Source: Peptococcaceae bacterium BRH_c4b (GTDB lineage Bacteria; Bacillota; Desulfotomaculia; Desulfotomaculales; Desulfocucumaceae). From it: a stretch of 64,000 nucleotides of DNA. Shown in pieces: positions 15,613 to 15,861 of the stretch. The translations under genes and the position numbers were made by a program. Positions within the stretch are counted from its first letter, which is position 1; every line of letters starts with the position of its first letter. Under the pieces are notes generated by a model that was given only the letters and a program-made list of their open reading frames with translations, had not been told where the DNA came from and did no database searches. The stretch covers positions 62,001 through 126,000 of the forward strand of contig LADO01000055.1 of assembly GCA_000961595.1 (NCBI GenBank), written 5' to 3'.

Positions 15613-15642
15613 GGGAATGTCCCCAATAAAGGAATGTTCCCA
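15613..15642. repeat. Short copies of the GGAATGTCCCC repeat
   Basis: Two tails, GGGAATGTCCCCAA and GGAATGTTCCCAA, lie between glnB and the nifH leader elements. Confidence 0.7.
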
Positions 15643-15645
15643 ATA

Positions 15646-15732
15646 TATAACAGTGTTGTTATGGAAAAGGGCATTGGCGCCCCAGTTTCAGGAGGATAAA
15701 CTCCTCCCCGAAAATCTGGGGCGTCATTTTTT
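15646..15732 (+). promoter_or_regulatory. ANTAR-type antiterminator element E1 plus terminator (nifH leader)
   Basis: P1 is ATAAC-AGTGTT-GTTAT (15647-15662); P2 is GGGC-ATTGGC-GCCC (15669-15682). Both hexaloops carry A1 and G4. The terminator stem GGCGCCCCAG (15676-15685) / CTGGGGCGTC (15716-15725), then ATTTTTT, begins inside the P2 loop, and its loop carries an additional GGAGG/CTCCT hairpin. Confidence 0.83.
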
Positions 15733-15737
15733 AAAAT

Positions 15738-15808
15738 AAAACTGGCAATGTTGCTGTTTTGACTAACAGGCAAAGACGCCTTCTGATATATCTGGAAGGC
15801 GTCTTTTT
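15738..15808 (+). promoter_or_regulatory. ANTAR-type antiterminator element E2 plus terminator (nifH leader)
   Basis: P1 pairs AAAAC (15738-15742) with GTTTT (15756-15760) and GGC with GCT around loop AATGTT, with one bulged T. P2 is AGGC-AAAGAC-GCCT (15768-15781). Both loops have A1 and G4. The terminator AGACGCCTTC (15774-15783) / GAAGGCGTCT (15795-15804) plus T-run overlaps P2. Confidence 0.82.
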
Positions 15809-15861
15809 GTTGCAATTTTCAGTCAATAGCAATAATCCCATTAAGGCGAGGAGGTTTTATT

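Follow-up and report, generated by a model that had tools for sequence, protein, structure and literature searches.

Two tandem ANTAR-type gates, N1 and N2, lie between glnB and nifH, and both can be regarded, by their sequence, as confirmed real copies of the ANTAR target module. It is quite probable that they act as serial ANTAR-dependent attenuators of the EutV/NasR type, fronting the nif operon and fed with polymerase from the amtB promoters. All evidence presented here is sequence evidence. The stretch of DNA that was analysed, called the window below, is 64 kb long.

Gate modules upstream of nifH

A gate consists of two hexaloop hairpins, P1 and P2, and a terminator that overlaps the second hairpin. 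Two such modules precede nifH:

15646..15726, + strand: gate N1, found by the loop and stem scan, folding and the covariance model; kept in the sister species G004
15743..15806, + strand: gate N2, found by the scan, folding and the covariance model; terminator compensations in G004

The P1 hairpin of N1 (TATAAC-AGTGTT-GTTATG, 15646-15663) is joined by a 5-nt linker to P2 (GGGC-ATTGGC-GCCC, 15669-15682). The terminator of this gate spans 15675-15726 and is followed by six T, with the U-run at 15729-15734. In N2, P1 (TGGC-AATGTT-GCTG, 15743-15756) is separated by 11 nt from P2 (AGGC-AAAGAC-GCCT, 15768-15781), and the terminator (15772-15806) is followed by five T. The sequence-only reading had described the loops AGTGTT/ATTGGC and AATGTT/AAAGAC, with A at position 1 and G at position 4 (A1/G4) in all four, as well as a terminator overlapping P2 in each module. 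All of this was found as claimed: the four hexaloops sit on stems of at least 3 bp, and both terminators have their 5' start inside P2. The linkers of 5 and 11 nt fall within the 5-12 nt range of ANTAR targets. By its sequence, N2 is the weaker gate of the pair. Its P1 stem contains G-U in two of four pairs and lacks an A-U pair second from the top.

The amtB leader and the layout of the operon

Upstream of N1 and N2 lie amtB, glnB and a leader with two promoters and three further gates, and the nif genes follow downstream:

13139..13167, + strand: sigma-A-like promoter 1 of the amtB leader, TTGACA-17-TAATAT, with TG before the -10
13189..13249, + strand: gate A1, P1 loop GATGCA, P2 loop AAAGAA, terminator 13218-13249
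13270..13298, + strand: sigma-A-like promoter 2 of the amtB leader, TTGGCA-17-TATAAT, 11/12
13320..13377, + strand: gate A2 before amtB, P1 loop AGTGTT, P2 loop AAGGGC, terminator 13343-13377
13381..13446, + strand: gate A3 before amtB, P1 loop ACAGTG, P2 loop AAGGGC, terminator 13404-13446
13740..15134, + strand: amtB, ammonium transporter (Pfam PF00909, E 2.4e-143)
15266..15604, + strand: glnB/glnK-type PII protein (Pfam PF00543)
15862..16683, + strand: nifH, the first gene past the gates (TIGR01287 above cut-off)
16807..17527, + strand: nifI1 and nifI2, PII-like (PII matches)
from 17664, + strand: nif block D, K, E, N, B, read from the ORF translations

The glnB stop codon (15604) is 41 nt from N1. 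Gate A1, with G as the first letter of its P1 loop, is located between the two amtB promoters both here and in G004, and is therefore met only by transcripts from promoter 1. In the sister species, the leader layout is the same and both promoters have counterparts, which are better still (TTGACA-17-TATGCT in the same place as promoter 1, and TTGACA-17-TATAAT for promoter 2). Between A3 and amtB, at 13570-13635, a fourth P2-like hairpin (AAGC-AAGGGC-GCTT) occurs with a long inverted repeat and no T-run; it is conserved in G004 and has no clear P1.

Chance expectation and an independent model

Both strands of the whole window were scanned for two hexaloop hairpins with a terminator overlapping the second. 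With A1/G4 loops, five candidate pairs were obtained on the + strand, one of which is an overlapping alternative at A3, leaving four clean modules, all of them at amtB or nifH; the minus strand of the 64-kb window gave none under the same scan. When 16 identities of loop positions 1 and 4 were tried, A1/G4 alone gave several modules, 14 of the other 15 gave zero, and one gave a single match in the window. Shuffled windows contained a mean of 0.025 modules, and not one of 3000 shuffles of the 257-nt spacer contained even a single module (0/3000). In RNA folding, N1 and N2 were each more stable than 200 of 200 shuffles, with z values of -4.4 and -5.1.

An independent covariance model was trained on 25 modules from other genera, the genus of this genome being left out. 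It placed A1, A2, A3 and N1 at ranks 1-4 in the window, A1 being the best match (32.8 bits), and N2 at rank 6. The match to N2 (15.1 bits) was aligned out of register, owing to the weak, G-U-rich P1. The presence of two tandem ANTAR-type modules before nifH is thus confirmed by the scan, the shuffles, folding and the covariance model. Rfam, searched at gathering thresholds, gave no match at the nifH gate locus, which indicates that no T-box or known riboswitch family is located there.

Conservation in relatives

The sister species G004 has the same order, amtB-glnB-N1-N2-nifH, with a nearly identical N1. Its N2 has diverged, and both loops start with G. As read by eye on a small alignment, the N2 terminator keeps 11 of 11 pairs between the two species, with two double compensations (C-G to G-C and A-U to G-C) and two wobble changes. 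The N1-type combination of P2 and terminator is retained in G001 and G003, and one pair of the N1 stem is C-G, T-A or A-T across four genomes, again by eye on a small alignment.

Compensatory changes in relatives had been named as a check on the modules, and the terminator stems show them, not only between N2 and its counterpart in G004. In a position-based alignment of nine nifH leaders, both sides had changed in 9 of the 19 pairs of the two terminators, a count matched by 1 of 500 shuffles. In the same alignment, there is too little variation in P1 and P2 for covariation to show, and only the terminators covary. A covariation count from an earlier alignment was disregarded, since the sequences in it had been chosen by pairing.

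Across the order, nifH leaders commonly carry gates, often two in series. Some of the gated leaders have a strong promoter of their own and no amtB upstream, and double gates occur there too. In 30 modules from 28 nifH leaders, collected with no loop rule imposed, position 4 is G in 24 of 30 (P1) and 28 of 30 (P2), while position 1 is a purine in 28 of 30 (P1) and 30 of 30 (P2), G at this position being common. These counts suggest that the loop rule for ANTAR targets in this order is purine-1/G-4, not strict A1/G4.

The arrangement around the gates varies. In a Pelotomaculum genome (G100; genus inferred), a promoter and two gates are followed by amtB, glnB, one gate and nifH. G095 has the same layout with a reduced nifH gate, and some of its hairpins have no recognisable P1. 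In G033, which is probably Desulfotomaculum acetoxidans, gates are found before nifV and between nifV and nifH, and no strong promoter was found between these two genes.

The source of nifH transcription

From the 3' part of glnB to nifH, the best sigma-A-like site scores 8, which equals the mean for shuffled sequence (8.0), and no -24/-12 site is present. RpoN is encoded in the genome; sigma-54 control of nifH was nevertheless rejected, the spacer having no -24/-12 site. The earlier statement that no sigma-A or sigma-54 promoter was recognised between glnB and nifH holds within the reach of consensus scans, which miss weak promoters. The accompanying expectation, that polymerase arriving from amtB-glnB would meet N1 and N2 before the nif genes, agrees with the sequence layout.

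Across the order, a sigma-A promoter (score of at least 10) precedes nifH at 0 of 5 loci with amtB upstream and at 20 of 23 others (Fisher p 0.0006, a value that compares related genomes and is weaker than at face value, the five amtB-upstream loci not being independent because of shared ancestry). The promoter-like sequence at 13828-13855, within amtB, could add transcripts but was left out of account, since the sister species does not conserve its -35 box.

That nifH has an unrecognised promoter of its own between glnB and N1, with the gates forming an ordinary 5' leader, is quite improbable. Such a promoter is present in most members of the order, and a TATATA stretch occurs just 5' of the N1 loop, yet the TATATAAC stretch is the 5' arm of P1. 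G001 has this stretch in its P1 arm as well, and its clear promoter, TTGACA-17-TATACT, is located further upstream. The sister species, moreover, has only about 25 nt between the glnB stop and P1, and the best score in the spacer is that of shuffled sequence.

ANTAR proteins and a probable nitrogen regulon

Two receiver-ANTAR proteins, both with Response_reg and ANTAR domains, are encoded in the genome, and at least one ANTAR gene is present in 99 of 113 members of the order. One of the two genes is directly upstream of glnA, the gene for glutamine synthetase. By reading, its leader contains a gate with P1 AGATAC-AAAGGC-GTATCT and P2 AGGC-AATGAT-GCC, and a further gate precedes glnA. Behind the second ANTAR gene, a P2 with terminator, which makes a partial gate, precedes a gltB-like, glutamate-synthase-like gene. 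The leader of a second glnB-amtB pair contains P1 and a less regular P2, likewise a partial gate. This set of gated genes looks like a nitrogen-assimilation regulon, of which the list given here is a lower bound, the model search having scored 150 of 1662 candidates.

The receiver of ANTAR1 (L003:18529-19110) has Glu at the site of the phospho-acceptor Asp, where ANTAR2 has Asp. Many ANTAR proteins of the order (relatives L131-L160) share Glu at the aligned position. The signal input to the Glu-type ANTAR receivers may differ from ordinary phosphorylation.

Proposed mechanism

The modules and their conservation, the presence of ANTAR genes and the lack of promoter-like sites are seen in the sequences; ANTAR binding, antitermination, read-through, a nitrogen signal and an effect on expression are what we infer. 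Without an active ANTAR protein, the two terminators (15675-15726 and 15772-15806) would form in the nascent RNA. Under nitrogen scarcity, P1 and P2 would be held by an ANTAR dimer, which is most likely formed by one or both receiver-ANTAR proteins. A held P2 would remove the 5' arm of the terminator, allowing polymerase to pass. Because nifH is without a recognisable promoter of its own, this polymerase would most likely come from the amtB promoters, reading through amtB-glnB. On its route to nifH, it would meet A2 and A3 (and A1 too, if it started from promoter 1), followed by N1 and N2. The main effect would be a tight shut-off of nitrogenase, together with a somewhat higher induction threshold.

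Diazotrophs usually have nifH mRNA in abundance. With four or five gates as the only route to nifH, its transcript could not exceed the amtB level, and processing or stability would have to compensate for the serial gating.

What the doubling of the gates is for can be read in two ways. It had been suggested that the extra gates let amtB-glnB be expressed at a lower threshold than nif, and such a difference follows logically from serial gates if each passes independently. That the gates exist in order to set a higher threshold for nif, ammonium uptake being induced before nitrogenase, which would await a more severe nitrogen limitation, is possible but rather doubtful. Serial gates multiply, and in a toy model four gates instead of two shift the half-maximal point about 2.2-fold and make the response slightly steeper; extra nifH gates behind a gated amtB are also retained in the sister species and in G100. 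However, the predicted shift is small, and serial double gates occur as well in nifH leaders that have their own promoter and no amtB upstream, so that amtB need not be upstream for doubling to occur. The idea that the gates were built to separate amtB-glnB from nif is thus unsupported as stated, gates being common in promoter-bearing nifH leaders; by the sequence comparison, control belonging to the nifH leader itself appears to be the better explanation. There is about an even chance that two gates serve to square the leak of a single terminator and keep nitrogenase off, with no meaningful difference in threshold. With a leak of 5% per gate, two extra gates in the toy model cut the off-state 400-fold and move the half-maximal point about 2-fold, and double nifH gates are found repeatedly in the order, whether amtB is there or not; against this, Pelotomaculum seems to manage with a single gate. 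As a reading, tighter shut-off of nif does at least as well as a separate threshold.

N2 might also have degenerated into a plain conserved terminator or a stabiliser of the mRNA end, its P1 no longer binding ANTAR. The weak P1, the out-of-register match to the independent model and the G1 loops in the sister species would fit such a loss, which is nonetheless unlikely. In this genome the two N2 loops have the canonical form, the length of its linker falls in the range that was tested, and other gates of the order often have G at position 1. In addition, an unregulated terminator directly 5' of nifH would silence nif. N1 and N2 are probably inherited leader gates of nifH that were kept after nif came to lie behind amtB-glnB, the simplest history in view of the gates, also double ones, where nifH has its own promoter.

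Relation to known systems

The ANTAR target RNA was defined by Ramesh et al. in 2012, and P1, P2, the loops and the linker were tested for EutV (PMC3369931). For EutV, mutants and EMSA established the mechanism, in which P1 and P2 are held by the active dimer and the terminator is thereby blocked (PMC3369931). Linkers of 5-12 nt functioned in EutV targets, whereas those of 3 and 14 nt failed, and an A-U pair second from the top of P1 mattered (PMC3369931). EutV/EutW of the Enterococcus faecalis eut operon resemble the N1/N2 system in the A1/G4 hexaloops, the 5-12 nt linker and the terminator overlapping P2, and in the series of terminators that runs through one operon, at eutP, eutG, eutS and eutA (PMC3369931). 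They differ in serving ethanolamine use with a known kinase, where nitrogen assimilation and nif are concerned here. In contrast to eut, a single gene here has two head-to-tail gates in front of it, and the relatives have either A or G at loop position 1.

ANTAR RNAs were also predicted upstream of nitrogenase, PII, ammonium transporter and glutamine synthetase genes (PMC3369931). Desulfotomaculum acetoxidans, of the same order, has at least 13 ANTAR RNAs in six transcription units, with gates at nitrogen genes (PMC3369931 Fig. 9C), but in this species (probably G033) nifH is located behind nifV, not behind amtB-glnB. Similarly, three transcription units of Pelobacter carbinolicus that are important for its nitrogenase carry ANTAR RNAs (PMC3369931 Fig. 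9B), although this putative nitrogenase regulon belongs to another phylum and is predicted only (PMC3369931). NasR, acting on the Klebsiella nasF leader, and AmiR, acting on the Pseudomonas amiE leader, share the RNA logic and the ANTAR output domain, but have a single leader gate and other sensory domains.

The switch type and serial ANTAR gates, both in eut and at nitrogenase, PII and amt genes, were thus already reported in 2012 (PMC3369931). Among the papers searched, no experimental study of nif gates in this order was found. What may be new here is the nif block that lies, with no recognisable promoter, behind a gated amtB-glnB in several lineages, together with the recurrent double gates of nifH and the relaxed loop rule. 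More tentatively, nif may have lost its own promoter in several lineages and be transcribed only via read-through from amtB-glnB, with serial ANTAR gates ordering the induction. If this were true, ammonium uptake and PII would come first, and nitrogenase only once ANTAR activity opens every gate; the nitrogen hierarchy would then be set by gate number and not by different promoters or regulators. The nif gates point to a post-initiation control of nitrogenase by gate counting, as opposed to the NifA/sigma-54 scheme, in a large anaerobe group. The nifH promoter, present without amtB upstream and absent with it, makes gate counting testable.

Other elements in the window

A short repeat, GGAATGTCCCCAA, occurs in 207 copies in the genome (reversed control 0), among them those at 15611-15643, 13506, 15215, 15232, 1199, 1280 and 38611, and elsewhere. 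It is present in the amtB-glnB spacer and directly 5' of N1, where the sister species is without a copy. The repeat looks like a REP-type element whose hairpin mimics an A1/G4 hexaloop. Despite this mimicry, the hairpin GGGAATGTCCCC 5' of N1 was rejected as a third gate hairpin, since it is part of the 207-copy repeat and is missing in the sister species. Further downstream, RNA domains of a group II intron are located at 34045-36163 (Rfam RF00029, RF01999).
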